Translations under genes and position numbers: made by a program
The notes under the pieces: generated by a model
Told to the model about the DNA's origin: nothing
Database searches by the model: none
The model's input: only the letters and a program-made list of their open reading frames with translations
NCBI RefSeq assembly: GCF_000633635.1
Contig: NZ_AYPQ01000001.1
Span: forward strand, 62,424-126,423
DNA: 64,000 bases
Direction: 5' to 3'
Source of the DNA: Enterococcus crotali
GTDB lineage: Bacteria > Bacillota > Bacilli > Lactobacillales > Enterococcaceae
Shown: piece by piece, positions 4,527-62,805 of the stretch
Numbering within the stretch: position 1 is the first letter of the stretch
How the letters are laid out: every line of letters begins with the position of its first letter

Positions 4527-5717
4527 ATGTTCAATGCGTATTCAAAAGACAAAGAAGTTGTGACGCTACTCAATTTAACTAGAGAAAAAATCGAGAAAAT
4601 GAAGGGCAAACCATATTTTTGTCCGGCTTGTAATCATCCAGTTCGAATAAAAAATGGTAAAGTCAAGCTACCGCATTTTTCTCATTATAATCAAAGCTCG
4701 TGTGCTTTATACTCAGAAGGCGAGACAAGAGAACATTTGGCCTTGAAAGAAGTTTTTGCTACATGGTGCGAAAAAGAGACCATTCACTATGAATTAGAAA
4801 AATACTTACCAGAGTTGAATCAAAGACCAGATCTTTTAATAGGCAATATCGCAATTGAGATCCAGTGTAGTCCCATAAGTGTTAAAAGGTTGGTAGAAAG
4901 GACTAATAGCTATCAAAAACATGGCTATACGCCAATCTGGATTTGTGGAAGCAAACTATTTTCGAATCCTCAGACTTTAAGTGAACTAGTTAAGAACTTA
5001 TGCTATTATTCGGAGCGATTAGGCTTTTATCTCTGGTCAGCTGACTGGCAAAATAAAGAATTGAATGTGTATTTTCATCTTGAAGAAGATTGGAAGAAGC
5101 GAATCTATTCTTCAAAAAAAAGTTGGGCTTTTTATAGTGACTTATTGATGGAAATTCTAGATTTTCCCAGTAAATCTCATATTTACATTCAAAGAAAATT
5201 TAAAATTGGTGAACTGATCCAAGACTATTATTGGACGTTGAGGAAAAAATTATATACGAAAGATGAGCACACTAGAGTGATCCAATCTGTATTATATAAC
5301 AAGCGATATCATTTACTTTACTTGCCAAATTGGTTTTATTATCCTGGTCTACACCTCTTTTGTTGTAGGGGATCAGACTTGTTGTTGAAGGTTCAAATTT
5401 GGAAATGGGTACAGTTTTTTGATCAGAATGTTTTTGAGCTGGAGGACTTATTTTTACATTTCGACAGGGAGTTAGAAAAGTCGCTTGGATTATTTTACGA
5501 GCTCCCAAATATTCCTGTCGATGTTGTCAAAGAATACTGTATAAATCAGTTATTGATGAATTTAATTGCTTGTGATCATTTAGTCAAAAGCCGATCGGGG
5601 TGGAAAGTGTCAGCAAATACTACTGAACGAAGCATAGCGGATGTCGAGAAGTGGTTAAAAAGAATTGAAAATAAATGTTTAATCACTGCTACTCCATTTA
5701 AAAATGTGATAAGATAA
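4527..5717 (+). CDS. coiA: Competence protein CoiA family (nuclease-like)
   Basis: CoiA-family protein, 396 aa; in streptococci CoiA helps process incoming DNA during transformation. A zinc-knuckle-like segment CPAC...HFSH is at residues 32-53. A PD-(D/E)XK-type nuclease core follows near 100-116 (RPDLLIGNIAIEIQCS: D, then E-x-Q). The N-terminal MFNAY start and FNAYSKDK context match the family. It sits between mecA and pepF, with no clear terminator before pepF (36-base gap), so co-transcription is likely. Whether this organism is naturally competent cannot be judged here. Confidence 0.9.
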   Translation: MFNAYSKDKEVVTLLNLTREKIEKMKGKPYFCPACNHPVRIKNGKVKLPHFSHYNQSSCALYSEGETREHLALKEVFATWCEKETIHYELEKYLPELNQRPDLLIGNIAIEIQCSPISVKRLVERTNSYQKHGYTPIWICGSKLFSNPQTLSELVKNLCYYSERLGFYLWSADWQNKELNVYFHLEEDWKKRIYSSKKSWAFYSDLLMEILDFPSKSHIYIQRKFKIGELIQDYYWTLRKKLYTKDEHTRVIQSVLYNKRYHLLYLPNWFYYPGLHLFCCRGSDLLLKVQIWKWVQFFDQNVFELEDLFLHFDRELEKSLGLFYELPNIPVDVVKEYCINQLLMNLIACDHLVKSRSGWKVSANTTERSIADVEKWLKRIENKCLITATPFKNVIR

Positions 5718-5753
5718 GTCTATGTAAGAATAATTTGAAATGAGGTAGATATA

Positions 5754-7568
5754 ATGACTGAAGCGAAGCAATTACCAGAACGTTCGAGCTTACCAATCGA
5801 TCAGACTTGGGACTTAACTAAAATTTTTAAAGATGATCAAGCGTTTGATGAGGCTTTTCAAGCATTATCAGATGAGCTAAAAGAAGGGGCTCGTTTTAAA
5901 GGGACTTTAGGCAAAGACAGTACTACTTTTTTAGACAGTATAGAAAACTTGTTAAGCATTTACCGTAAAATCGAAGTGATCTATGTTTATGCTCATTTAA
6001 AAAATGATCAGGATACGACGAATACGACGTATCAGGCCATATATGCAAGAGCGAGTGCTCTATATGCTCAAGCCAGCGAAGCGGTCTCTTGGTTTGAACC
6101 AGAAGTTTTATCATTAAGTGATGAGAAGATTTGGGGTTACTTTGACGAAAATCCTAAGCTAGAGATCTATCGTCACTTTATTGAAAATATCTTGAGTGAA
6201 CGTCCTCATATCTTATCAGCAGATCAAGAAGCTTTATTAGCTGGTGCAGGTGAAATTTTTGAAGCATCCAGCAATACTTTTTCCATTTTGAATAATGCTG
6301 ATTTAAAATTTCCTGTAATCGAAGATGAAAATGGAGAAAAAATCCAATTGACTCATGGTGTTTACGGGCAGTTGATGGAAAATACAGATAGAAGAGTACG
6401 TGAGGAGGCATTTAAAGCTCTTTACACTGTTTATGACCAATTTAAAAATACCTTTGCGCAAACATTGAGTTCACATGTTAAAACGCATAATTATAAAGCA
6501 AAAATCAGAAATTATCCCTCTGCAAGAGCGGCTGCTTTGAGCGGTAATCATATTCCAGAAAGTGTTTATGATACTTTGGTAGATGTAGTAAATAAAAATT
6601 TGTCCTTGCTGCATCGTTATGTAGCCTTACGTAAACGTTTATTGAAGTTAGATGATCTTCATATGTATGATATGTATACGCCTATTTTAGGAGAAGCATC
6701 GATCAAATATACTTATGAGGATGCAAAAGAAAAAGCAATTGCAGCGTTAAACCCAATGGGCGATGAATACTTAGAGATAGTAAAAAATGCATTTAATGAC
6801 CGTTGGATCGATGTTGTAGAAAATCAAGGAAAACGAAGTGGTGCCTATTCATCTGGTGCTTACGATACAGCACCTTATATCCTTATGAACTGGCACGATA
6901 GCTTAGATCAATTATACACATTGGTGCATGAGATGGGTCATAGTGTTCACAGCTATTTTACTCGTAATAACCAGCCGTATGTATATGGAGATTATTCAAT
7001 TTTCTTAGCTGAGATCGCTTCGACAACGAATGAAAATCTTTTGACGGAGTATTTGCTTGAAACAGAGACAGATCCTCGGACTCGAGCATATGTTTTAAAT
7101 CATTATTTGGACGGATTTAAAGGAACGATTTTCCGTCAGACACAATTTGCTGAATTTGAACATTTTATTCACACCGAAGATGCCTTGGGAACGCCTTTAA
7201 CAAGTGAATATTTAAGTGATTACTATAGTGAATTGAATCAGAAGTATTATGGTCCTGAGGTGACAAAAGATTCAGAAATTGCATTAGAATGGTCAAGAAT
7301 TCCTCATTTTTATTACAATTATTATGTCTATCAGTATGCGACAGGCTTCTCTGCTGCATCAGCTTTAGCAAATAAAATGTTAGCAAAAGAGCCGCTTGCA
7401 TTAGATAAATACTTGACTTATTTGAAATCAGGTAGTAGTGATTTTCCGATTGAAGTGATGAAAAAAGCTGGTGTTGATATGACAAAACCAGAATATATCG
7501 AGGATGCTATGCGTATTTTTGAATTAAGGTTGAATGAATTAGAACAGCTTTTGGAATCCTTAGCATAA
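5754..7568 (+). CDS. pepF: Oligoendopeptidase F (M3B metallopeptidase)
   Basis: Cytoplasmic zinc peptidase cleaving oligopeptides of roughly 7-17 residues. The 604 aa match the M3B family length. The catalytic HEMGH motif (LVHEMGHSVHSYF) is near residue 392, with the third-ligand Glu region (SIFLAEIASTTNE) about 25 residues on. The start is ATG at 5754 after a GAGGTAG ribosome site. It follows coiA, the same order seen around competence loci in other lactic acid bacteria. A bidirectional terminator separates it from the convergent spxH. Confidence 0.96.
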   Translation: MTEAKQLPERSSLPIDQTWDLTKIFKDDQAFDEAFQALSDELKEGARFKGTLGKDSTTFLDSIENLLSIYRKIEVIYVYAHLKNDQDTTNTTYQAIYARASALYAQASEAVSWFEPEVLSLSDEKIWGYFDENPKLEIYRHFIENILSERPHILSADQEALLAGAGEIFEASSNTFSILNNADLKFPVIEDENGEKIQLTHGVYGQLMENTDRRVREEAFKALYTVYDQFKNTFAQTLSSHVKTHNYKAKIRNYPSARAAALSGNHIPESVYDTLVDVVNKNLSLLHRYVALRKRLLKLDDLHMYDMYTPILGEASIKYTYEDAKEKAIAALNPMGDEYLEIVKNAFNDRWIDVVENQGKRSGAYSSGAYDTAPYILMNWHDSLDQLYTLVHEMGHSVHSYFTRNNQPYVYGDYSIFLAEIASTTNENLLTEYLLETETDPRTRAYVLNHYLDGFKGTIFRQTQFAEFEHFIHTEDALGTPLTSEYLSDYYSELNQKYYGPEVTKDSEIALEWSRIPHFYYNYYVYQYATGFSAASALANKMLAKEPLALDKYLTYLKSGSSDFPIEVMKKAGVDMTKPEYIEDAMRIFELRLNELEQLLESLA

Positions 7569-49941: not shown

Positions 49942-51380
49942 TCAGAGTAGTTGATCGAACCTAGCTATGATTTCAAAAAAATTTTCTCCTTTAAGATAAG
50001 AAACCAGATGAGCAAATAGAATCATCAATTCCTCAAAGAAAATTTTATAGTCATCATCACAATAGTCATTTTCTGAACCATGGGCTAGATTATTTCTTAT
50101 TTTAGCCAATTTATTCATCTTATTTAGTATCAATGATTCTAAGCTACATTCATTTCCAAGTTTTTTACTAAAATCCTCTACTTTACCGAAGTTTCCGTCT
50201 GAACAGAATTCTAACTGAATATATAGTCTTATAATATCTCTTAATTTGTCATTAATTAAGTCCCTTTGATCATTGCAAAGGCCGTTATAAATTCTAATAT
50301 ACCATTGTAAATTATTTTCAAAAGAATAATTTGAAAAATCTAGCTCTATTTCATTCAAAAAAAACTGTATTACATCGACGTTATTTGCGTCGTGATAGCT
50401 ATAATAAAGCTCTTTTATAAATATTTTAAGTTTCTCTTTTAAATGAAAAATAATTGTTTCTATCAAAGATTCAAAAGAAACAAATCCAAGCAAGAATGCG
50501 GTTCTGAAATTGTTAGAGTTATAGCTTTTATAAGCTTGAACAAGATAAAATTCCCACATTTCATTACCTAAATAGATTGTTACATCGACTTCTAAGCATA
50601 AATCTCCGATCACTCCATAAGAACAATTGTAGTTATCATAATCGAACATCATCACATAGCTTTCATTTGAGCCATGTACTGGAGAAACCTCAAAATTGCT
50701 GACTACGTCATTTGTAGTGAAAGAATCATGTAAACCTTCATCAGTGATCAATAAAATATTTTGAAAACTTGAAGTAATGACTTTATTATAGTCTATTGAG
50801 GGATTTTTTAATGGTTTATTTTCTAGCTCTTCATACTCATATGAATAGGTATAACCTTGTTTTAGTTCATTTGATTTTATTATATCGGATTTACCCCAAA
50901 ACTTTAATTTTTCCTTGTATTGATCTGTAAATACGTTCTCTGAAGGCGCATAATAATATTTTTTTACCGTTGTGGAAACGAGTAATTCTTCGATGATATC
51001 ATTAACAAAATTTTTATTCTCCAAATTGTTTTCGAAAAGTAAAATTCTGTTCACTAGCTTATTTAGCGCTAGCTGTTTAATTTCTTCCTCTTCTAAATTC
51101 TTGGTGTTAATTTTCAATTCTTTATTTAAATAAACACTTCTTATATTTTTATATTCGTCTTTACTGATTTCATTTCCTTTTAGAAAATCCCAAAAACAAT
51201 CATAATCTTTGCTATTGTTTTTTCAAAGTCATAATAAAAGGTGTCGTATAAAATATCACAGATTCTATCAACTGACAAATCGTTGTAAACAAGTCTATCA
51301 GAGAATAATGACTTGAAGTAGTTCAACATTTTTCTATGCTCAATAACACTAGTTTTTTCATCATCAGTAATATTCTTCAT
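49942..51380 (-). pseudogene. HEPN-domain protein, frameshifted; possible defence gene
   Basis: Not a recognised named gene. Two frames join if one base is added to the six-T run at 51218-51223: FEKNNSKDYDCFWDFLKGNE replaces a stop, giving ~479 aa. The C-terminal third is helical and ends with KIRNNLAHG (near residue 442 of the joined chain), the RNxxxH motif of HEPN RNases, preceded by a FESLIETIIFHLKEKLK helix. The size and layout (N-terminal beta-rich unknown part, C-terminal HEPN) recall ApeA-type anti-phage proteins. Gene alone, AT-rich, between core genes, consistent with horizontal gain. Activity is unproven. Confidence 0.6.
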
Positions 51381-52362: not shown

Positions 52363-52420
52363 AATAAAATAAAACTACTAAGAAAACTTGTTGTCGTTTT
52401 TCTCGGTAGTTTTTATTTTT
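52363..52420. terminator. Hairpin terminator left of the invertible segment
   Basis: AATAAAACTACTAAGAAAA pairs with TTTTTCT(CGG)TAGTTTTTATT; T-rich on both strands. It would insulate traX from the recombinase region. Confidence 0.6.
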
Positions 52421-52520
52421 TAAATATAAAATAAATGATTTAATTTTTAGTAAATAAATATAATGGTGAAAAATATGAGATATATTGTTATAATGAAATT
52501 GGGTTTAAACGATAATAAAA
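52421..52520. other. AT-rich stretch left of IR-L with outward candidate promoter
   Basis: TGTTATAAT at about 52488-52496 (extended -10) with GTGAAA 17 bases before the TATAAT points rightward through IR-L into the segment. No coding frame. Confidence 0.35.
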
Positions 52521-52550
52521 TTTTTCTTGAATGTAGCAGTTACAAGAAAA
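52521..52550 (+). repeat. IR-L, recombinase core-type site
   Basis: 30 bp: a leading T, arm TTTTCTTGAAT, spacer GTAGCAG, arm TTACAAGAAAA. Exact reverse complement of IR-R. Confidence 0.9.
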
Positions 52551-52761
52551 TAATGAATAGAAGGCATGTAGAATCAATCCTTCATTTCAACTACTAATTC
52601 ATTCTATATCAAAGTTAAGCAAGAGTCTATAAGGAAAAGTTTATTTTTTTATCATATTTTTATCTAATTTTATAAAAAAGTGAGAAAAACTAGATGTTAA
52701 TTAGCGTTTATAATAAATATTCGTTGAGTCTTATTGTAAAATATCTTGTGTTAAATTATGT

Positions 52762-52790
52762 TTGGCAGTCTTTAACGTTGTTACTATATA
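52762..52790 (+). promoter_or_regulatory. Recombinase promoter
   Basis: TTGGCA, 17-bp spacer, TATATA, about 70 bases before the gene and inside the segment, so it would invert with it. Confidence 0.55.
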
Positions 52791-52815
52791 TTAAAAAAAG
52801 AGGTTCATATTTTTT

Positions 52816-52837
52816 AGCCGTCAAATAAGCCGTCAAT
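52816..52837 (+). repeat. Left pair of AGCCGTCA direct repeats
   Basis: AGCCGTCA at 52816 and again at 52828, 12 bases apart, between the recombinase promoter and gene. A similar pair with the same spacing is at 54119 and 54131. Confidence 0.6.
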
Positions 52838-52860
52838 TTTTTTGGAAAGGGTGTCAGGTT

Positions 52861-53987
52861 TTGAGTAGAAAAGGTGAGAATATATACAAAAGGAAGGATG
52901 GCCGTTGGGAAGGGCGGTACGTAAAAGCCAGAAACGAACAGGGGAAAATTATTTATGGCTATATTTATGGAAAACGTTATGCATCTGTAAAAGAAAAACT
53001 TGCTAAACTGAAAGTTCAATATTCTTTTACTCATAAGTGTATTAATTCATATGAAGGGACGGTTCAAAATTGGTTAAACTATTGGCTAGACATATTGATG
53101 CGAAAAAAAATCAAAATTTCTACCTATTCAAGTTATCGGTTACGTATCGATAAATACATTGTTCCATTTCTAGGTGCAAAAAAATAACCCAATTAAAAAG
53201 TCAGGAAGTGGAAGAATTTGTCAATTATTTAACTAGTTTGGATTTGTCACCTTCAACCGTTCATTCGATTGTCACTGTTTTGAAAAGTGCCTTGAACAAA
53301 GCCTGCATGGAAAACTATATTCTTTATAATCCTTGTAATAACTTATCATTATCAGCTAATACTCTCAATGAAATATCAGCACTAAGCATGAAAGAACAAG
53401 GGAAAATAGAACAAGTTGCGTTGAAAGAAACAGAGTGTTCTGCTGTGATTTTAGCACTGTATACGGGCTTGAGAATTGGTGAAATCAGCGGTCTAAAATG
53501 GTCTGATATCGATTTTGAAAAAGATATTATTCATGTAAGAAGAACTGTATACAGGATCTCTAGTACTGAAAAAAGTAAAAAAACAGAGGTCATTATGGCT
53601 GAGCCTAAAACAAAAAGCTCCAAACGAGCTATTCCTTTAGCCAAAAATTTGAAAAATTACCTATTAGATAAGAAGCAAGTGGCTACCTCTGAATATGTTA
53701 TTTGTTGTAAAGACAGTTTCGCTGAGCCACGTGTAATCAGTTATCGATTTAAAAAAAGCATTGAGCAAGCGAAAATCAGACCCATTCATTTTCATGTCTT
53801 GCGTCATACGTTTGCCACAAGATGTGTAGAACGTGGTATCGATATTGCAACTCTAAGTAAATTATTAGGTCACGCGTCGATAAAATTGACCTTGGATACT
53901 TATACAGATTCACTTTGGGAAAATAGAAAAGCTGCTGTTTCAGTCCTTGATGATCAACTTGGGCTGCAGCAGTTATCCTCGAAATAA
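52861..53987 (+). pseudogene. Tyrosine recombinase/integrase, frameshifted
   Basis: Site-specific recombinase. TTG start after GGAAAGGGTG. N-terminal AP2-like DNA-binding part (MSRKGENIYKRKDGRWEGRY), SAM-like core-binding region (WLNYWLDILMRKKIKISTYS onward), then catalytic domain with Arg in ALYTGLRIGEISGLKW, His-x-x-Arg in HVLRHTFATR, His in KLLGHASI and nucleophile Tyr in LTLDTYTDS. The frame breaks in a seven-A run near 53178-53184; one added A gives FLGAKKITQLKSQEVEEF and ~376 aa. All catalytic residues are then present, so it is probably functional if the missing base is a sequencing error. The flanking inverted sites suggest it inverts its own gene. Confidence 0.88.
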
Positions 53988-54005
53988 TTAAAGGAACTAG
54001 CAGTA

Positions 54006-54074
54006 AAAATAAATAGAAAAAGGTCAAGGGCATAATTTAACTGATTATGTCCTTGACCTTTTTCTATTTATTTT
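54006..54074. terminator. Strong bidirectional terminator inside the invertible segment
   Basis: 24-bp stem beginning AAAATAAATAGAAAAAGGTC and mirrored at 54051-54074; T-rich on both strands. In the present orientation it blocks read-through from the recombinase gene into the WxL regulator; after inversion it would face traX instead. Confidence 0.92.
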
Positions 54075-54117
54075 GCTAAAAAACACTATTGTCAATTTTT
54101 TGATCAGTTTATCTTTT

Positions 54118-54140
54118 AAGCCGTCATAGAATCGTCAACT
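54118..54140 (+). repeat. Right pair of AGCCGTCA-like direct repeats
   Basis: AAGCCGTCATAG followed by AATCGTCAACT, with the same 12-base spacing as the left pair and the same strand orientation. Confidence 0.5.
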
Positions 54141-54178
54141 ACTGCATAAATTTCAAGAAGATTAACAAAAAAACGACT

Positions 54179-54208
54179 TTTTCTTGTAACTGCTACATTC
54201 AAGAAAAA
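54179..54208 (-). repeat. IR-R, recombinase core-type site
   Basis: Exact reverse complement of IR-L over 30 bp, including the asymmetric 7-base spacer, so the two sites are in inverted orientation. Confidence 0.9.
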
Positions 54209-54253
54209 ACCGAAACAAATATTTTTGTGCCATCGTTAACTATTTAAGCATTA

Positions 54254-54276
54254 AATAGAGATATCTCTATTATAAT
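54254..54276 (+). promoter_or_regulatory. Promoter and operator of the WxL regulator
   Basis: Perfect 18-bp palindrome AATAGAGATATCTCTATT (54254-54271) touches TATAAT (54271-54276). No good -35 is present, which suggests activator dependence or repression by a dimer at the palindrome. It lies just outside IR-R. Confidence 0.6.
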
Positions 54277-54374
54277 CGGAAGTCTCGAATTTCTAAACTC
54301 TAAAGACTTCTAATGATTAACTAAAGTGCAAATGTACCGAATGGCTGACAATATGATGAGGAGGGATTTTAATT

Positions 54375-55094
54375 ATGTATACAATTGGTTATGTTTCGCT
54401 TGAAGGGAAAGCAAGTGAAAGTCATAAAGAATTATTTGCACCACTTCAATCTCATATTCAAATTATTGAAAATGAGCAAGTACGTCAAATAGTTGAAAAT
54501 GATGGCGAGATTTTACATCAAATAGATACGTTAGTAATTGAACATTCTGACTTGAACGATCTTAATTTGATTTGCGAGCTAATCATGAATATACGAAAAC
54601 AGGCCAATGTGCCACTTTGGATTTTGGCTTCATCCAAAAATGTGAATCGAACAAATCGAATTGTTTATTTACAACTAGGTGCAGATGGCATTATCGATCA
54701 AGCGGATGAGACCGATGAATCGATATTGATGATGAGAAATCTAATGAGACGCTTTCGAAACCGAGAACATCATGAAGTACTTAAAGAAGTGCCAAAAAGT
54801 AAAACATTTGATTTTAAATTGATCCCACAGAATTTGAGTGTTTGTTTAGAAAATGGAAAAGAAGTCAATTTAACAAAATTAGAATTTCTTACAATTGAGT
54901 ATTTACATAAGCATGCACGCAAGACAATGACATATGAAGAAATTTATCAAAATGTTTGGAACGATATTTATCTTGATCGGAAATATCGAGTGTCCAATTT
55001 GATTTTTCATTTAAGACAAAAACTTGAAATTGATGTCGAAAAACCCAAATACATTAAAACTGTCCGTTCCAAAGGCTACATGCTGAATGTTTAA
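54375..55094 (+). CDS. OmpR-type winged-helix regulator with degenerate receiver domain
   Basis: 239 aa. The C-terminal Trans_reg_C winged helix (~150-239) has LTKLEFLTIEYLHKHARKTM, YRVSNLIFHLRQKL and KYIKTVRSKGYML, typical OmpR/PhoB features. The N-terminal ~120 residues keep a receiver-like pattern (DTLVIEHSDLND; PLWILASS; LQLGADGIIDQ), but the phospho-acceptor Asp strand reads LVIEHS, so ordinary phosphorylation is doubtful and no histidine kinase is adjacent. GAGGAGGG precedes the ATG. It lies between the invertible segment and the WxL genes and is the obvious candidate regulator of them. Confidence 0.82.
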   Translation: MYTIGYVSLEGKASESHKELFAPLQSHIQIIENEQVRQIVENDGEILHQIDTLVIEHSDLNDLNLICELIMNIRKQANVPLWILASSKNVNRTNRIVYLQLGADGIIDQADETDESILMMRNLMRRFRNREHHEVLKEVPKSKTFDFKLIPQNLSVCLENGKEVNLTKLEFLTIEYLHKHARKTMTYEEIYQNVWNDIYLDRKYRVSNLIFHLRQKLEIDVEKPKYIKTVRSKGYMLNV

Positions 55095-55456: not shown

Positions 55457-56791
55457 TTGAAAAAAACACAAGTATTAAAAAGAGGGCTACTGACATTAGC
55501 TGCAACTGCTGCATTAGGAGCCGTTGTACTATCAGTTCCAGCACCATTTTCAGGTGAATCAGTTGTTGCCTATGCAGCAACAGAAACGGCTGAAGTTTCA
55601 TCGATCGAAGAATTTGAAGCGGCGTTGAAAAATCCAGCTATTACTGTAATCAATGTAAACCAAAGTATTCAATTTAAGAAAAACATTACTAACATTCCAA
55701 ACCGCGATTTAACAATCAATGGTAATGCAGATAAAGGTGTTGTGATCAATTCTGGACACAATTCTATCTATGGTAAACAAAATACAAAAGGCAAAAACCT
55801 TGTAACAATTACGAAGGCTACTATCGTTGGTGCTGACAGTGATGGACGCTTCTTCACAGGTGGCTCTGGTAATGGTCCTTCAAGTTATGGTTGGGATGTA
55901 TTAGCAAAAGATGTAACGTATACTGGTGCTCGTTTTGTTCACCTTAGCGAAGGGAAATTAACATTTGATGGAACAAATAATATCACAACTCGTGCTGAAA
56001 ATGCTTGGGTACATGATTTAGAATTCAAAGCAGGTTCTACGTACAACGGAGTTGCTGCTAATAAAGACCACGGTCAATTCTCAGCTTTCTACTTCAATGG
56101 TGCGCTTATCAAAGGTAAAGCAACAGGTGAGGCAATCATTGGCGATAATGCAAAAGTAAACGTAAAAATTGGACCACAAAGTACTGTGAACCATTATTAC
56201 CCAGTATTTTATGACAAAGTACAAAAGGTTGACGTTGGTGCTGGTGCTACTTTTGATGTAGATGCAGCTGGTGTTGCTTTCCAATTTATTCCGCGCGCTG
56301 ATTATGTAAATAAAATCCCTACATTAAATATTGCAAACGATAGCCATGTAAAATTTAATGGCCGTGGTGGCGGTAACTACGCGACTATGAAACTTCAGTA
56401 TTATGGATCAGAAGTAAATGTATCAGAGGGTGCTGAATTAGTAATCACTGGTAACAGTACAAAAGCAGTTATCGAAAGTGAATATAAAGGCGCTGTTATT
56501 AATTTAAATGCGCCAGAAAACTTTGAAATCGCAAATAAAAAAGCGGGTAGTAAATTATTCTATTCTACAAACACAACAATCAATGGTACTGATATTGGAG
56601 CGATTTCTACTTGGAACCAAATCGGTGGCGAGTATACTGAAAATCCAGTAAGTGAGTTTGATGGCGGTAATTTTGCTGTTAACTTTGGTAAAATCTGCAA
56701 CAGCAAAACGTTATCTGTAACAGGAGATCTATCTCAACAATTTAAAATGGAAAACTATGGAAAAATTTCTTTGACATCAGGTGGTATCTAA
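55457..56791 (+). CDS. Secreted pectate-lyase-like (parallel beta-helix) adhesin-like protein
   Basis: 444 aa with a signal peptide (residues 1-40, AAATEAYA-type end: VVAYA-ATETAE). The mature part has short beta repeats rich in Asn, Gly and Val (DLTINGNADKGVVINSG; NVKIGPQSTVNHYYP; VDVGAGATFDVDAAG), consistent with a pectate-lyase-like beta-helix adhesive domain often found in enterococcal WxL clusters. No LPxTG motif. No WxL motif at the C-terminus (ends FKMENYGKISLTSGGI), so the anchor is unclear. TTG start after GGAGG. First structural gene of the cluster. Confidence 0.78.
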   Translation: MKKTQVLKRGLLTLAATAALGAVVLSVPAPFSGESVVAYAATETAEVSSIEEFEAALKNPAITVINVNQSIQFKKNITNIPNRDLTINGNADKGVVINSGHNSIYGKQNTKGKNLVTITKATIVGADSDGRFFTGGSGNGPSSYGWDVLAKDVTYTGARFVHLSEGKLTFDGTNNITTRAENAWVHDLEFKAGSTYNGVAANKDHGQFSAFYFNGALIKGKATGEAIIGDNAKVNVKIGPQSTVNHYYPVFYDKVQKVDVGAGATFDVDAAGVAFQFIPRADYVNKIPTLNIANDSHVKFNGRGGGNYATMKLQYYGSEVNVSEGAELVITGNSTKAVIESEYKGAVINLNAPENFEIANKKAGSKLFYSTNTTINGTDIGAISTWNQIGGEYTENPVSEFDGGNFAVNFGKICNSKTLSVTGDLSQQFKMENYGKISLTSGGI

Positions 56792-56988: not shown

Positions 56989-57049
56989 CCATTTTATGTA
57001 AATGTTTTTAATGAGTTTACAAAGAATAATGGAGAAAGGGGGAATGATT

Positions 57050-59539
57050 ATGTGGAAAGTAAAGAAGTATTTTGTTGTTTCTATTTTAGCCGTATTAGCT
57101 TGTTCTGTTTACTATTTTATAAATAACGGGCAGTCAATTTTAGCGAGCACACCAGCAGGATATAGTGATCTGTCTCAAGCAGAAAATATAAATTTAGAAG
57201 ATGATTCAAAAGGTGCTTCAGTTGAGATTCCAGGTGAATATGGATTTATGTTTAAATTGACCGACAAAGTCAAGTATAGAGGATTTGGAGAGTCTAATAT
57301 CGTTAAAGGAATTAGAGGATCGAACTCTGATGGGTATCAGTTTAATCCAATTGATAAAGATAAGTATCCTGAACGAGGTGTTTGGGTTGAAAATGCCGGT
57401 GTATACAATGGACGAAGTGTTGATTTGAAACTAGTGATCGACAATATGGCTTTTAGAGAAGTTGAAGGTCAATCGGGCGTCTATCCTAATTTTAATTTCA
57501 TTGCAGTTGATCCGTTAGATAAATACTCACAAGCAAACAAACCCGTGACTCAGATGAATACATGGAATGATCTTTATTTAATGGTCGGAAGTACTTCAAT
57601 TAGTTCAGCTGGTACTAGCGATAAGTATCACATTGGAGATACGGTTGATTATCATTATGAATTTTATGATAGTGAAACAAAGGAAAAAATTGTCCTTCTA
57701 GGCGCTTGGAACTTTAATAATATCAACAATTTGAAAGCAACAAGTATCCCGTTTGCTAATGATTTCAGTAAAATGTATGGATTAGCAGGTACTGCAGAAG
57801 CGGATTCTAAAATGGATATTGGGTATAAATTAGATACGCCGACTCCTGGTTATATGGAAATGTATGGCGGGAACAATAAAGTAAACAAAAAAAGTGGGCG
57901 TTTAACACATCTGTTTGAAAAGGACAGCTATAAAGTGAAGATGGAACGACGATATGGAAATGCTTCTAATACGCCACCTCCAAACCCAGACACCAATACA
58001 GGGAATATGGGCATACTTTATATGACGGAATCCATCGCAAGAATTGCTCCAGCGAGACCTATTGTATTTGGTGAACGCAATAGTGCAACGCACAACGATC
58101 CAAAATATAGAGAGCTGAGCTATTCTATTCTTCAAAATATTGCTGATAACACAAAATTAAATAGAGATAGTAGTTTCACATTAGAAACGGAAGTTCCTAG
58201 TTACTATTCTATTGATTTGGATTCAGTGAAAATTTTTGAATATGGAACAACCGAAGAGTATACCAGTATTTTTAATATTACCAAAAGCCCTGAATCAGAT
58301 TCTAAAGTAATTATATCAGCAAAAGATCCAACTGCAGACTTAGATCCTTTAAATCCTGACTCTAAAGTATTTAATGCGCATGTATTTGATATAAAAATAG
58401 TTGCCAGACCAAATAGCTCCTTCAATTTTGATCCGGACACATACAATTATAGTAATGATGCGAATGTACCAGACGACAATGGTTTTATGAGTTTTGAACA
58501 AGCAGGTGTTAAAACTAAAATGTCTTATGTTTATAAGGAACCTTCTGGTCAAGAGAAATTTAAAGACACTTTAGAAGCAAAAGTCATTGACAAGCAAACA
58601 ATGTCTAAAGTGTTATATGAAGGAGTTCCAGATGGTGATCCTAAAGCAAATATTACATTCTCAAAAGGAACAGATTTCTCTAAAGTGGATGTGCAAACAG
58701 CTTATCTGGAAAACGTAAGAGTTGATACGAAAAATAAGATCGATGAACCTATCTCTGTTACCTATAAAAATGGTGTACAGCCTGATTCTTCGATTTTAGG
58801 TGAGCAAGAGGTCACGTTGATTTTAACAACTGCCAAAGGAGTTACTACTGAGAAGGTTGTAACTATTATGATCACAGATGTAAGTACCTCCCTAACGATT
58901 CAATTTGTTGGCGAAGATAGCAATGAGATTCATACACCGGTAGTTTTAGATGGCAATACAACTGACAACGTTGATTTGACGAATCAGACAATTGTTCAAG
59001 GGATTATATCCGATTTAGTTTCAAAGGGCTATACACAGTTGGCTTGGGACAATCCCTTCCCAGAAAATAAGACACCCTATAGCGCAGGGACAGTTACTTA
59101 TAAATTTCAAGGGAATCTTGCGTTGGATTCTGTTCCGAAAACATTAAATTTTGGAAACTTAACCTATGATGCTAAAGACCAACGGGTAGAGAATCCGACA
59201 TTCAAAGAGAAGTTAGTTATTTCGGATACTCGTGCTAATCCTAGCCAAGGATGGCATTTAACCGCTGAATTAGCTGATCCGATGAAAAATGATAAGGGAC
59301 AAGAATTAGTTAATGCGCTTCGTTATGTAGACAAAGGAAAAGAATCAATACTTGATTCGAATGCTCAAGTAGTATATGCCAATACTGAAGGAAAAGATGG
59401 GAAATTTGTGGTCAGTGATCAATGGGGGACAACTCAAGGCACTGATGGAATCAAGCTTCAAATAAATTCTTCTGACACAGTATATACAGGTGAGTATATT
59501 GGCGTTATTACTTGGAAGATCATGGCTGGACAACCATAA
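57050..59539 (+). CDS. Large WxL-domain surface protein
   Basis: 829 aa. N-terminal signal/anchor helix (YFVVSILAVLACSVYYFI). A lectin-like jelly-roll fills ~30-300 (GYSDLSQAENINLED, MAFREVEG...WNDLYLMVG), then Ig-like or MucBP-like repeats (~560-690; TSLTIQFVGEDSNEI). The C-terminal WxL domain (~690-829) has LNFGNLTYD, GWHLTAELADP and the ending ITWKIMAGQP, the two tryptophan motifs that bind peptidoglycan non-covalently. ATG 57050 is chosen; an ATG 6 bases upstream sits too close to the GAAAGGGGG site. Cell-surface adhesion is the likely role. Confidence 0.85.
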   Translation: MWKVKKYFVVSILAVLACSVYYFINNGQSILASTPAGYSDLSQAENINLEDDSKGASVEIPGEYGFMFKLTDKVKYRGFGESNIVKGIRGSNSDGYQFNPIDKDKYPERGVWVENAGVYNGRSVDLKLVIDNMAFREVEGQSGVYPNFNFIAVDPLDKYSQANKPVTQMNTWNDLYLMVGSTSISSAGTSDKYHIGDTVDYHYEFYDSETKEKIVLLGAWNFNNINNLKATSIPFANDFSKMYGLAGTAEADSKMDIGYKLDTPTPGYMEMYGGNNKVNKKSGRLTHLFEKDSYKVKMERRYGNASNTPPPNPDTNTGNMGILYMTESIARIAPARPIVFGERNSATHNDPKYRELSYSILQNIADNTKLNRDSSFTLETEVPSYYSIDLDSVKIFEYGTTEEYTSIFNITKSPESDSKVIISAKDPTADLDPLNPDSKVFNAHVFDIKIVARPNSSFNFDPDTYNYSNDANVPDDNGFMSFEQAGVKTKMSYVYKEPSGQEKFKDTLEAKVIDKQTMSKVLYEGVPDGDPKANITFSKGTDFSKVDVQTAYLENVRVDTKNKIDEPISVTYKNGVQPDSSILGEQEVTLILTTAKGVTTEKVVTIMITDVSTSLTIQFVGEDSNEIHTPVVLDGNTTDNVDLTNQTIVQGIISDLVSKGYTQLAWDNPFPENKTPYSAGTVTYKFQGNLALDSVPKTLNFGNLTYDAKDQRVENPTFKEKLVISDTRANPSQGWHLTAELADPMKNDKGQELVNALRYVDKGKESILDSNAQVVYANTEGKDGKFVVSDQWGTTQGTDGIKLQINSSDTVYTGEYIGVITWKIMAGQP

Positions 59540-59555
59540 GAGAGGGAGAAAGAAT

Positions 59556-59909
59556 ATGAAAAAGAAAAAGAATTTTATCTTATCCCTCCTTATAGTTGCG
59601 TGCTTAGGTTTGATTGGATTGGTTGGTTTAAATTCTAATCAAGTTGAAGCCTCACAAGGCGGTGGCGGACAAGTAATCAGAGGCGGTAAAATCACGTTTT
59701 ATGAAGAAAGCAGCTCATCAATAGATGCAAGTTCTTCCACAGAACCAAGTGTTTCAGAGTCTTCCGATTTGGTTACAGAAAAGCCTAAAGGGAGATTGCC
59801 TAGTACAGGAGAGTTGATCAAGCGATATGGCTGGATTGGTGGAGCAATATTATTACTAAGTGCTTTCCTTTTATTTATGCGAAAACATAAAAAGGAGGAG
59901 CAGCAATGA
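59556..59909 (+). CDS. Small LPxTG-anchored protein
   Basis: 117 aa: signal peptide (FILSLLIVACLGLIGLVGL, ends VEA-S), a 45-residue Ser/Glu-rich spacer with polyserine (ESSSSIDASSST), LPSTGE at ~81-86, a hydrophobic helix (WIGGAILLLSAFLLFM) and a basic tail (RKHKKEEQQ). A sortase substrate, found in most WxL clusters; a sortase gene is not in the window. GAGGGAGAAAG precedes the ATG. Its stop overlaps the next start by 4 bases. Confidence 0.9.
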   Translation: MKKKKNFILSLLIVACLGLIGLVGLNSNQVEASQGGGGQVIRGGKITFYEESSSSIDASSSTEPSVSESSDLVTEKPKGRLPSTGELIKRYGWIGGAILLLSAFLLFMRKHKKEEQQ

Positions 59910-60718
59910 TGAGATTGAAGATTCCTTTTCAGTTAACGATAGTCGCTGTAGCTTGTCTTATTTCAGTCAGTTTTAAACAAGAGATAAGTTTTGCAACAGC
60001 AGATTCCTTTGATGGATCTGGGAGTGTCACAGTTACAGGAAATGATCATACAAAACCGATCGATCCTGAAAATCCTGAAACACCCGTAGATCCTGGTGAA
60101 AGTCCATATACAACCGGGCCGCTAAGAATTGATTATGTTTCTGCTTTGAATTTTAACAAGGCAATAATCAAAAAGAAAGAGCGAACTTATGAAGCATTGG
60201 CACAACAATTTTTCGATGAGACAGAGCCTAGAGGAAGCTATATTCAAATTACAGATCAGCGTGGTTCATCATCAGGTTGGACACTTCAGGTGAAACAGAA
60301 TACACAATTTCACAACTCTGTGATTCAAAAACAAGAAGAACAAACTTTAGTTGGCGCTTACCTTTCCTTGGACAAAGGCTGGGCAAACTCTAGTGGTGAT
60401 AGTCAAGCACCAACTGTGACAAGAGAAACGATAGGATTAAATGCGATAAATACTGCATATGAAGTCGCAACGGCGTCTCCTGGAACAGGTAGAGGAGTCT
60501 GGACAATTGCTTTTGGAGCATCAGAAGCAAATTCGAACCAGCAAGCAGCAACATTAAAACCACTCAAAGATAGTGACGGGAAAGCAGTGATGGATGAGGT
60601 TTATAACAAACCAGCTTATACCAATTCTGCAGTTAGCCTAACAATACCCGAATCAACAAAGATTTATCCGGTACAATACGAAACGGAGATAACTTGGATA
60701 TTAGCCAAGTTGCCTTAA
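59906..60718 (+). CDS. WxL-domain surface protein
   Basis: 270 aa with a signal peptide (LTIVAVACLISVSF...SFATA). N-terminal Asp/Pro linker (PIDPENPETPVDPGESPYTT), then a WxL domain across nearly the whole rest: LRIDYVSALNFN, ITDQRGSSSGWTLQV (near 125) and the terminal TEITWILAKLP. Both tryptophan motifs are present. It is probably bound non-covalently to peptidoglycan or to its DUF916 partner. Translation coupled to the LPxTG gene. Confidence 0.92.
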   Translation: MMRLKIPFQLTIVAVACLISVSFKQEISFATADSFDGSGSVTVTGNDHTKPIDPENPETPVDPGESPYTTGPLRIDYVSALNFNKAIIKKKERTYEALAQQFFDETEPRGSYIQITDQRGSSSGWTLQVKQNTQFHNSVIQKQEEQTLVGAYLSLDKGWANSSGDSQAPTVTRETIGLNAINTAYEVATASPGTGRGVWTIAFGASEANSNQQAATLKPLKDSDGKAVMDEVYNKPAYTNSAVSLTIPESTKIYPVQYETEITWILAKLP

Positions 60719-60755: not shown

Positions 60756-61556
60756 ATGAAATTAAGAAGTTTATGTACAGCAGCATTAGTCGCAGGAGTT
60801 TTAGTAGCATCAACAGGAGGAGCAGCACAAGCATTTGCAGCTCCAGGAGAACTAGATTCAACAGGAACGGTAACAGTTGATGAAGGTGGTACGAACGGGA
60901 AAGATAAAACACCCGATCCAGAAAAACCAGATGAAAAACTACCTGAACACCCAGAAATTCCAACAAACCCAGATGCTGGTGCCTTAATAATCGACCAAGT
61001 TTCAAACTTGAGTTTTGGCAATATTAGTACAGATTCTAAAGAAATCAAAAAATATGCAGCAGCTATTGACTTATCAAAAGCAACACCAGCTGGAACTGGT
61101 ACTCGTGGAGCAATCGTTGGTTGGACCGATGTTCGTGGTGGTGCAACAGTTGGGTATACAGTAACAGCAGAATTAACACAACAATTTACAGGATCAGCTA
61201 CAAATGCAACAACACTTGCAAATTCAACGATTACTTATTCAAACGGAATGGCTGTACCAGACGGTGCCAACAAAAATACTGTGCCATCTAATGTTTTAAA
61301 CGGATTTGAATTAGCATACCAAGGCGGAGCTAAAACAGTTGTAACTGCTGATAAAGCCAATAAAGAAGGTAAAGGTACCTATGTATTAGAATTTGGACAA
61401 AGTGCTGACTACAAACCAGGAACAGGCGCTCCAGCTGGCGCACCTGGAACAGATGCAAAATCTGTGGAATTAACAGTTCCTGCAACAACTGCATCAAATA
61501 TGGTTCTTGACACATATACAGCTAAAGTAACTTGGAAAATCGTTGCAGCAGCGTAA
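60756..61556 (+). CDS. WxL-domain surface protein (variant motif)
   Basis: 266 aa, signal peptide ending AQAFA. Pro/Asp/Glu linker (TPDPEKPDEKLPEHPEIPTN) then a WxL-type domain: LIIDQVSNLSFGNI, IVGWTDVRGGATVGYTVTAEL and a terminal KVTWKIVAAA. The first motif lacks its usual Trp-x-Leu (GYTVT), so binding may differ from its neighbour. GAGGAAG ribosome site. Followed by a terminator, so it ends a transcription unit or attenuates the genes after it. Confidence 0.9.
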   Translation: MKLRSLCTAALVAGVLVASTGGAAQAFAAPGELDSTGTVTVDEGGTNGKDKTPDPEKPDEKLPEHPEIPTNPDAGALIIDQVSNLSFGNISTDSKEIKKYAAAIDLSKATPAGTGTRGAIVGWTDVRGGATVGYTVTAELTQQFTGSATNATTLANSTITYSNGMAVPDGANKNTVPSNVLNGFELAYQGGAKTVVTADKANKEGKGTYVLEFGQSADYKPGTGAPAGAPGTDAKSVELTVPATTASNMVLDTYTAKVTWKIVAAA

Positions 61557-61668: not shown

Positions 61669-62805
61669 ATGAAAAACGAAATGAAGAAAAAACTATTGCT
61701 GACTTTATTCGGTCTATTTGGACTACTAGTTACATCAATGACTGCAAATGTTCAACATGTAAATGCAAATAAAGACCCAGGTGGTGCAACTGGATTTACA
61801 TATAAAGTTTCTTATCCAGAAAATCAAATGGAAGACAATCTAGGTTATTATAAATTGAAAATGAATCCAAATGATCAGCAAGTAATCAAAATAGCATTGA
61901 CAAATCCAGGGTCAGAAAAGCTTACGGTAAATGTTCATTTAAATGGCGCTAAAACGAATCAAAATGGTGTCATTGAATACGGAGACTCGATCATTGAAAA
62001 TGATTCCTCTTTAAAAATAGATTTTAAAGACATTGTAACAGCGCCAAAAACGGTGGAGTTAGGAGCAGGAGAAACAAAAGACCTTGATTTGACCATTAAA
62101 ATGCCCGAAATCGCTTTTGATGGTACTTTAGCTGGTGGTGTTCAACTAATGCGTGCAGACCAAGGGGAAAAAGATAAAAAAGCTGGTTCTCAAATCATTA
62201 ATCAATACGCGTATATCGTTGGAATCTTGTTACAAGAAACAGACAAAGTTATAGAACCTAAATTGGAACTGAATAGTGTAAAAGCAGATCAAGATAACGC
62301 CAGAAATGCGATTTTTGTGAATGTTTCAAACATAGAAGCTGCTTATTTAAACGATATTACAGCAGAGGTACAAATAACAGAGAAAGATAACGACGCTATA
62401 CTGTATGAACGAAAACAGACTGCTATGCGTATGGCACCCAATTCATTTATCAATTTTCCTGTAAGTATGAATGGCGAAAAAATGAAAGCAGGGAAATACA
62501 AAGCGAAAATCTTGATGACTTCAGGGGATAAGAAATGGTCATGGGACCAAGAGTTTGAAATCAAGCAAAAAGATGCAGACCGATTTAATGAACGAGATGT
62601 CGGCTTGGTTCAGGAAAAAGGAATCGATTGGCGATCGATTGGATTAATTGTTGGCGGCATAGTACTCGTTATTATGATCGTCTTTGGGATACTTGTATTT
62701 TTCCGTAAACGTAATAATCGTAAACGTCCAAATAATTCTCCTAAAAAAAAGAGTGGAAGACCACAATCATCTAATAAACCTAAAAAAAAGAAACAAGATA
62801 GTTAG
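61669..62805 (+). CDS. DUF916/DUF3324 WxL-interacting protein
   Basis: 378 aa: signal peptide (~1-34), DUF916 peptidoglycan-binding domain (~42-160; FTYKVSYPENQ, LGYYKLKMNPNDQQVIKI), DUF3324 (~172-300; YAYIVGILLQETDK...PNSFINFPVSMNGEKMKAGKY), one membrane helix (~322-345) and a Lys/Asn-rich cytoplasmic tail (RKRNNRKRPN, KKKSGRPQSS). It is the standard WxL-cluster partner that holds WxL proteins at the wall (WxLIP). GAGGTG precedes the ATG. Begins the second part of the cluster. Confidence 0.93.
   Translation: MKNEMKKKLLLTLFGLFGLLVTSMTANVQHVNANKDPGGATGFTYKVSYPENQMEDNLGYYKLKMNPNDQQVIKIALTNPGSEKLTVNVHLNGAKTNQNGVIEYGDSIIENDSSLKIDFKDIVTAPKTVELGAGETKDLDLTIKMPEIAFDGTLAGGVQLMRADQGEKDKKAGSQIINQYAYIVGILLQETDKVIEPKLELNSVKADQDNARNAIFVNVSNIEAAYLNDITAEVQITEKDNDAILYERKQTAMRMAPNSFINFPVSMNGEKMKAGKYKAKILMTSGDKKWSWDQEFEIKQKDADRFNERDVGLVQEKGIDWRSIGLIVGGIVLVIMIVFGILVFFRKRNNRKRPNNSPKKKSGRPQSSNKPKKKKQDS

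Follow-up and report, generated by a model that had tools for sequence, protein, structure and literature searches.

Upstream of a regulator gene and a cluster of WxL surface-protein genes in Enterococcus crotali, a recombinase gene lies between two inverted 30-bp sites. Does this segment work as a DNA inversion switch, and what would it switch? We analysed the locus in a 64,000-nucleotide stretch of DNA, here called the window, and compared it with homologous loci in related genomes. The initial annotation had proposed that a recombinase flips its own gene beside a WxL regulator. This proposal was strongly supported for relatives of the window locus, but the recombinase gene of the window strain itself is interrupted. 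It is highly probable that the segment is a self-encoded invertible promoter that switches the regulator of the WxL operon and whose recombinase is an integrase with arm sites.

The segment ends in two sites:
52521..52550, + strand: left recombination site (core-type), TTTTTCTTGAAT GTAGCAG TTACAAGAAAA; aligned in 13 of 13 orthologous loci
54179..54208, - strand: right recombination site, a perfect inverted copy of the left site

As first described, the sites are identical in reverse orientation; the 30-nucleotide arms are 100% complementary with 1628 nucleotides between them. The proposed core layout, 11-bp arms around a 7-base asymmetric centre, also agreed with the sequence. This pair is the sole exact inverted repeat of at least 22 bp in the 64-kb window (arms more than 100 bp apart). 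We also considered that the 30-bp copies might be a dispersed repeat. A 29-base core pattern gave exactly two matches in the 3.9-Mb assembly with up to three mismatches, one per strand, and the reversed control gave none.

The recombinase is encoded as follows:
52861..53187, + strand: recombinase gene, first piece; 108 aa, TTG start; presumed arm-binding region and start of the SAM-like domain
53178..53184, + strand: A7 run at which the frame breaks; A AAA AAA in the upstream frame, then TAA
53208..53987, + strand: recombinase gene, second piece; 259 aa, remainder of the core-binding region and catalytic domain; Phage_integrase (PF00589), 2.4e-28

One tyrosine recombinase gene had been annotated between the sites. 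A tyrosine recombinase is indeed encoded there, but not by a single gene: the window strain has no single open reading frame for it, and the coding sequence is split at the A7 run into two ORFs in different frames, which separately match Phage_int_SAM_3 (integrase SAM-like) and Phage_integrase. Residues R205, K250, H312, R315, H338 and Y348, which we take to be the catalytic R-K-H-R-H-Y residues of tyrosine recombinases, were invariant in 16 homologues, and the N-terminus was conserved among 16 homologues as well (KGENIYKRKDGRWEGRY). The PHROG_1 integrase profile aligns to the recombinase from residue 8. A Pfam scan of an intact orthologue gave no match in the N-terminal region where an arm-binding domain was presumed, and a PDB sequence search with the N-terminus alone returned no relevant match. 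The nearest solved structures by sequence are the Int proteins 6en0, 6emy and 6emz, presumably Tn1549 Int. Homologues of the recombinase are phage- and ICE-type integrases, and its closest named relatives, from Enterococcus ureasiticus, E. ureilyticus, E. caccae and E. termitis, are 76-80% identical. PADLOC gave no match for the recombinase and none for the regulator.

All 22 Enterococcus genomes that we compared contain recombinase homologues, with 198 matches at E 1e-20 or better. We examined 152 of these (121, then 31 more), leaving 46 weaker matches outside the counts; the 152 loci represent 151 distinct ones, as one locus of genome G021 is present in two copies. An inverted repeat qualified if its ungapped score was at least 17 and its arms were 1300-2200 bp apart. 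Such repeats, about 1.5 kb apart, enclosed 121 of the 152 recombinase loci, and every one of the 22 genomes had two or more loci of this kind; the locus counts are not independent because the genomes are related. Repeats were found at 87 of the 96 loci with at least 48% identity and at 34 of the 56 below that value. A control in which the sequence on the right was reversed and not complemented gave a qualifying repeat at 0 of 121 and 0 of 31 loci, and a direct-repeat control reached the threshold at 16 of 152. Segments of the family span about 1.36-2.1 kb. A regulator homologue was found within 1 kb downstream and co-oriented at 102 of the 121 repeat-bearing loci, divergent at 2 and not found at 17. 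Loci lacking a qualifying repeat number 31. Six of them carry an arm pair (described below) on each side, 5 of these with a regulator within 1 kb; at the remaining 25 neither arm pair nor regulator was found.

Two of the related genomes provide evidence of inversion. The two ends of contig C1 of G021 are the same sequence over ~40 kb (99.9-100%, apart from small indels). This repeat runs to the very last base of the contig on one side and stops at most one base short on the other, the pattern of a circular contig left untrimmed. In a comparison of the overlapping ends that omits about 130 bases at one border, the only rearrangement is a 1560-bp segment, sites included, that is inverted in one copy. 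The 28-bp sites of this segment are imperfect. They read TTTCTTAT..CTTGTAGGAAAA and TTTCGTAT..CTTATAAGAAAA in one copy, and in the other copy the outer and inner site halves are exchanged reciprocally. Strands must then have been exchanged in the central stretch, which is what site-specific recombination would predict. This inversion is known from the assembly, in which a wrong join at the repeats could in principle mimic it. In G006 a segment is inverted relative to its counterparts in G013 and G020 (84-85% identical), and its nearest flanks on both sides are colinear with those two genomes at about 81-82%. The comparison of orientation among related genomes that the initial annotation had called for bears out inversion at the level of the family, with both orientations found for two of its members; the window copy itself showed no change of orientation.

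It is doubtful that the window copy still flips, given the break in its recombinase gene. In this strain the switch may be dead and locked, the family being invertible and the recombinase here lost by frameshift so that the segment stays in its present, predicted OFF orientation. We give this explanation an even chance, and a dead and a live copy appear about equally probable. The two-frame gene is unusual: among 103 inverted-repeat loci a truncated frame was found only at the window locus and at L189, a stop was flagged within the aligned range at 5 further loci, and 96 have neither. The other 12 orthologues of the window locus have a frame without truncation. Help from a paralogue is also unlikely, since the core sites of 8 switches in the same genome differ from each other (best matches of 10-18 letters for sites of 20-31 letters). 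On the other hand, both sites, both arm pairs and the promoter-like element described below are intact, and the break could stem from an error in the sequence or from a change in homopolymer length that can revert. Moreover, A AAA AAA stands in register before the stop, a form known to allow slippage, so some full-length product could be made.

The genes beyond the right site are the presumed objects of control:
54375..55094, + strand: regulator with a winged-helix domain (Trans_reg_C), on which the switch would act
55457..56791, + strand: protein with a pectate-lyase-like adhesive domain (domain match)
57002..59539, + strand: large WxL-domain protein (domain match)
59490..59909, + strand: small LPSTG-motif surface protein (motif by eye; true start probably further in)
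59906..60718, + strand: WxL protein (domain match)
60756..61556, + strand: WxL protein (match G000:C1:123269-123970)
61669..62805, + strand: WxL-interacting (WxLIP) membrane protein (domain match)

The start codon of the regulator is 166 bp beyond the right site. Gene types follow the order of the E. faecalis elrR-elrABCDE locus (regulator, WxL, small LPXTG, WxL, WxL, DUF916-type), as given in the available text of PMC4522977, and the window has in addition the protein with a pectate-lyase-like adhesive domain after the regulator. According to the same text, elrR acts positively on the elr WxL operon and expression of elrA in vitro is poor; no invertible segment is mentioned there (PMC4522977). 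Between the right site and the regulator (54209-54374), orthologues share conserved ATTATAA and TTTCTAAACTcTAAAG-like blocks, which suggest a second, regulated promoter. On the far side of the segment, a 391-aa reading frame at 49942-51117 (- strand) gave no Pfam or NCBIfam match.

We derived the anatomy of the segment interior from an alignment of the 13 orthologous loci and five paralogue groups (30 loci). The window copy contains:
52601..52629, - strand: P_out, outward promoter-like element, TAGACT-N17-TAGAAT, reading leftward out of the segment
52640..52695, no strand: conserved imperfect inverted repeat, AT-rich, immediately upstream of P_out; seen by eye in alignments
52816..52836, + strand: left arm-type pair, AGCCGTCAAATAAGCCGTCAA; a left pair is present in 107 of 121 family loci
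54006..54074, no strand: terminator-like hairpin between the recombinase and the right site; called terminator-like on the + strand at 54017-54063
54120..54138, + strand: right arm-type pair, GCCGTCATAGAATCGTCAA; a right pair is present in 105 of 121 family loci

From the left, the common order is core site, outward promoter-like element, AT-rich imperfect inverted repeat, arm pair and recombinase, followed in the right half by, often, a terminator-like hairpin, then a second CCGTCA-type pair, the core site and the regulator. The AT-rich repeat upstream of P_out recurs across paralogue groups. The left arm pair consists of two direct CCGTCA-type repeats (CCGTCA..GTCA) 11-12 bp apart, just before the recombinase, and the distance of the right pair from its core site has a median of 60 bp over 105 loci, with a 5-95% range of 56-62. 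The arm and promoter patterns were written after viewing six groups of aligned loci; 77 held-out loci had no part in forming them. Arm pairs were found in these on the left at 64 and on the right at 63. Opposite-strand controls gave 0 of 103 and, for the left end of the held-out loci, 0 of 77, and a coding control gave 0 of 103.

The P_out pattern with its 17-bp spacer is present in 13 of 13 orthologues. Its family-wide form, T(A/T)GACT-N17-TA..T, points outward at 90 of 121 loci and inward at 3, and 31 lack the pattern. In the first 103 loci it was outward at 83, whereas 50 shuffles of these loci averaged 5.0 and never exceeded 9. The result was weaker in the 77 held-out loci than in the full set (48 outward, 2 inward). 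A pattern-independent sigma-70 consensus score, applied to 77 loci, was higher in the outward direction at 55, equal at 14 and higher inward at 8. In the window alone, a generic sigma-70 scan found 11 candidates where 10.7 were expected, no excess, and did not single out P_out; the element was noticed because it is conserved across loci.

A strong bidirectional terminator had been placed inside one end of the segment. The hairpin is there and was called on the + strand; the - strand is symmetrical but gave no call. Terminator-like hairpins were found inside the right end at 41 of the 102 co-oriented loci (2 of 102 shuffled), between the right site and the regulator at 1 of 102 (0 of 102 shuffled) and, reading outward, within 300 bp left of the segment at 25 of 102 (2 of 102 shuffled), the control being one mononucleotide shuffle per locus. 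Left of the window segment, a hairpin was seen by eye near 52370-52425 and was not called by the terminator scan.

We propose that the integrase-type tyrosine recombinase would bind the paired arm-type repeats inside both ends, and that strand exchange in the centre of the inverted core sites would turn the 1.6-kb segment together with the recombinase gene itself. In the present orientation P_out (52629 to 52601, - strand) would read left, away from the WxL operon and toward the hairpin near 52370-52425, and the right-end terminator would insulate the regulator from transcription of the recombinase gene. After inversion, transcription from the promoter would cross the right site and enter the gene of the regulator, which would then activate the WxL operon. 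We predict that the window state is OFF and the flipped state ON because P_out points left and because the elr system has a positive regulator and shows poor expression of elrA in vitro. The initial annotation had attributed the change in transcription reaching the regulator to the position of the terminator. An insulating role for the terminator fits the model, but the decisive element is probably the conserved outward promoter-like element rather than the terminator alone.

Among the 104 loci with a regulator within 1 kb, 102 are in the predicted OFF orientation and 2 are flipped, one of the two being the second copy of a locus also counted in the other orientation. This ratio fits a strong OFF bias in culture and could also mean that flipping is rare. 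In the flipped copies, L144 and L151, the promoter-like element lies upstream of the regulator, and no terminator-like hairpin was found on the way.

These results bear on the possibility that inversion controls the recombinase, or insulates genes, and does not drive the regulator from P_out. Hairpins inside the right end and left of the segment would suit such a role, and P_out is a promoter predicted by sequence alone. However, the promoter-like element points outward, mostly with a 17-bp spacer, a hairpin stands between right site and regulator at just one of the 102 co-oriented loci, and the arrangement in L144 and L151 would leave the regulator open to the element. We therefore regard this explanation as unlikely, and retain the reading in which P_out drives the regulator.

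Could the segment be an insertion-sequence-like mobile element with the 30-bp sites as its terminal inverted repeats? An integrase-like gene between inverted repeats, homologues of phage and ICE type, and related cassettes on Enterococcus plasmids would be consistent with this. Its genomic position argues otherwise: the window locus precedes the orthologous regulator in 13 genomes, regulator and then adhesin genes follow downstream in 5 of 5 named relatives, and a traX-like gene keeps its place to the left in 4 of 5, the fifth being cut by a contig end. Further, site sequences are specific to each paralogue group, and the two rearrangements seen are pure inversions. An insertion sequence was rejected as a candidate, as the same terminal repeats did not recur at several places in a genome and only one pair was found. 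The inverted sites enclose the recombinase gene alone, unlike att sites with a mobile element moving between them. Taken together, a mobile element of this kind is distinctly improbable. A decayed phage or ICE integrase remnant with coincidental repeats, which the frameshifted gene and the integrase-like family might suggest, is very unlikely and close to negligible because inversion was seen in G021 and G006, and chance repeats and a prophage remnant were rejected in view of that inversion and of the inverted repeats around 121 of 152 homologues, which the reversed control never produced, as well as the predominance of frames without truncation or flagged stop.

The invertible-promoter reading may extend beyond the window locus. 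The E. crotali genome (G000) contains 12 strong recombinase homologues and one weak one, together with 61 WxL-domain matches in 24 clusters (4 of the matches below the Pfam cut-off). Nine of the 12 strong homologues lie 3.0-5.1 kb upstream of a WxL cluster and are co-oriented with it; stretches of 7 kb upstream of WxL clusters would cover 4.3% of the genome. It appears rather likely that an entire Enterococcus clade carries about two to ten self-encoded inversion switches per genome that work independently of one another, each with an integrase that would use shared arm-type sites and its own core site, placed before regulators of WxL operons or, in E. raffinosus, of an accessory-Sec operon.

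Some recombinases in these genomes have a different setting. Those at L196 (G000:C1:351737), L203, L195, L204 and L103 are 52-55% identical to that of the window, have no qualifying repeats, arm pairs or nearby regulator, and lie ~10 kb from the repeat-bearing switches L218, L221, L214, L210 and L213. In G000, the repeat-less L196 recombinase is beyond the same WxL cluster as the nearby switch.

Invertible promoters controlling surface regulators are a known class. The fim switch of Escherichia coli is an invertible promoter between short inverted repeats that is turned by tyrosine recombinases; it differs in that the element is much shorter and the recombinases are encoded outside it and lack an arm-binding domain. 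The recombinase of the Clostridioides difficile cmrRST switch, RecV, is encoded elsewhere, whereas the window recombinase lies inside the invertible segment and has arm-type repeats. PsrA of Streptococcus pneumoniae is encoded in the locus that it rearranges, and we know of no promoter switching of a WxL regulator by it. The available text on the cmrRST response-regulator operon describes it as phase-variable, with orientations of the invertible element determined by qPCR (PMC6837544); there, as proposed here, phase variation acts on regulators, which set a whole surface and motility programme. RecV is also named, in the part of the source at hand, for the C. difficile flagellar switch (PMC8890394). 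The hsdS inversions by PsrA are likewise the work of a Gram-positive tyrosine recombinase acting at inverted repeats, going by the available text (PMC7096588, PMC4948785). PsrA, unlike the window switch, rearranges hsdS coding regions according to that text (PMC7096588), and the terms 'arm-binding' and 'SAM-like' are absent from its main text.

By sequence and domain order, with an N-terminal region before the SAM-like domain, the window recombinase resembles the IntTn916 subgroup as outlined in the available part of PMC8138268. Members of that subgroup are described there as integrating mobile elements, whereas the gene of the window enzyme stands alone between inverted sites, and the arm-binding domain is described as essential for mobility (PMC8138268). 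The system suggests an integrase of the arm-binding type that works in place as an invertase.

A survey of site-specific inversion lists, in the text available, 15 positive Firmicutes species, only one of them in Bacilli, and enterococci are absent from that main text (PMC5903667). A dense multi-switch system in Enterococcus would fill this gap in Bacilli. Among the matches listed in the open-licence PMC literature, no title or opening of an abstract described WxL phase variation by inversion. As far as searches of that literature reach, what is new is an arm-site integrase within its own invertible segment, multiplied across one genus. OFF-biased inversion switches before WxL regulators, if real, would offer a reason for poor in vitro expression such as that described for elr, and they can be tested by simple PCR. 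If the switches are independent, each genome could adopt combinatorial ON/OFF surface states, and arm-site integrases would have been domesticated as invertases in which the arm code is conserved while the core code diversifies and so keeps one switch separate from another. The family also offers many matched sets of core, arm and recombinase for the study of how site specificity diverges.

At the family level, 37 of 105 genomes and 4 of 17 genera gave a match at E 1e-45. Nine loci outside the genus-level set, from E. raffinosus, E. gilvus, E. malodoratus and an E. faecalis plasmid, have arm pairs on the left in 7 cases and on the right in 9, and the promoter pattern in 2. On an E. raffinosus plasmid (L266) an arm-pair cassette stands in front of a gene for a helix-turn-helix protein and of secA2, secY2 and asp1, which belong to the accessory Sec system. 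At L263, another E. raffinosus locus, WxL genes follow a recombinase whose repeats are weaker; the inverted repeat is weak (score 15) at both L263 and L264. No orientation difference was found within either of the E. raffinosus plasmid pairs L263/L264 and L266/L267. The megaplasmid loci L266 and L267, from two strains, agree to 98.6% on the left side of the switch but to only 79% inside it and 89% to the right, as if switch and target had been exchanged as a unit. The E. faecalis plasmid (LR962555.1, L269), of a mobilizable type, carries a cassette at 5403-6897 with inverted repeats and arm pairs at both ends; beside it there is no ORF of at least 60 aa between about 6750 and 7650.

Among 64 relatives from outside Enterococcus (L019-L082), 22 of the 56 with enough flanking sequence carry inverted repeats with a score of at least 16, one of which is equalled by a direct repeat. 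Within L019-L054, from Clostridia and other MAGs and isolates, 22 relatives that are 34-47% identical have repeats scoring 17-29 at a distance of 1.28-1.47 kb. In a scan of ten neighbouring proteins from some of these loci and from the E. raffinosus loci, at least two of the distant relatives were found to adjoin TnpB-like genes.
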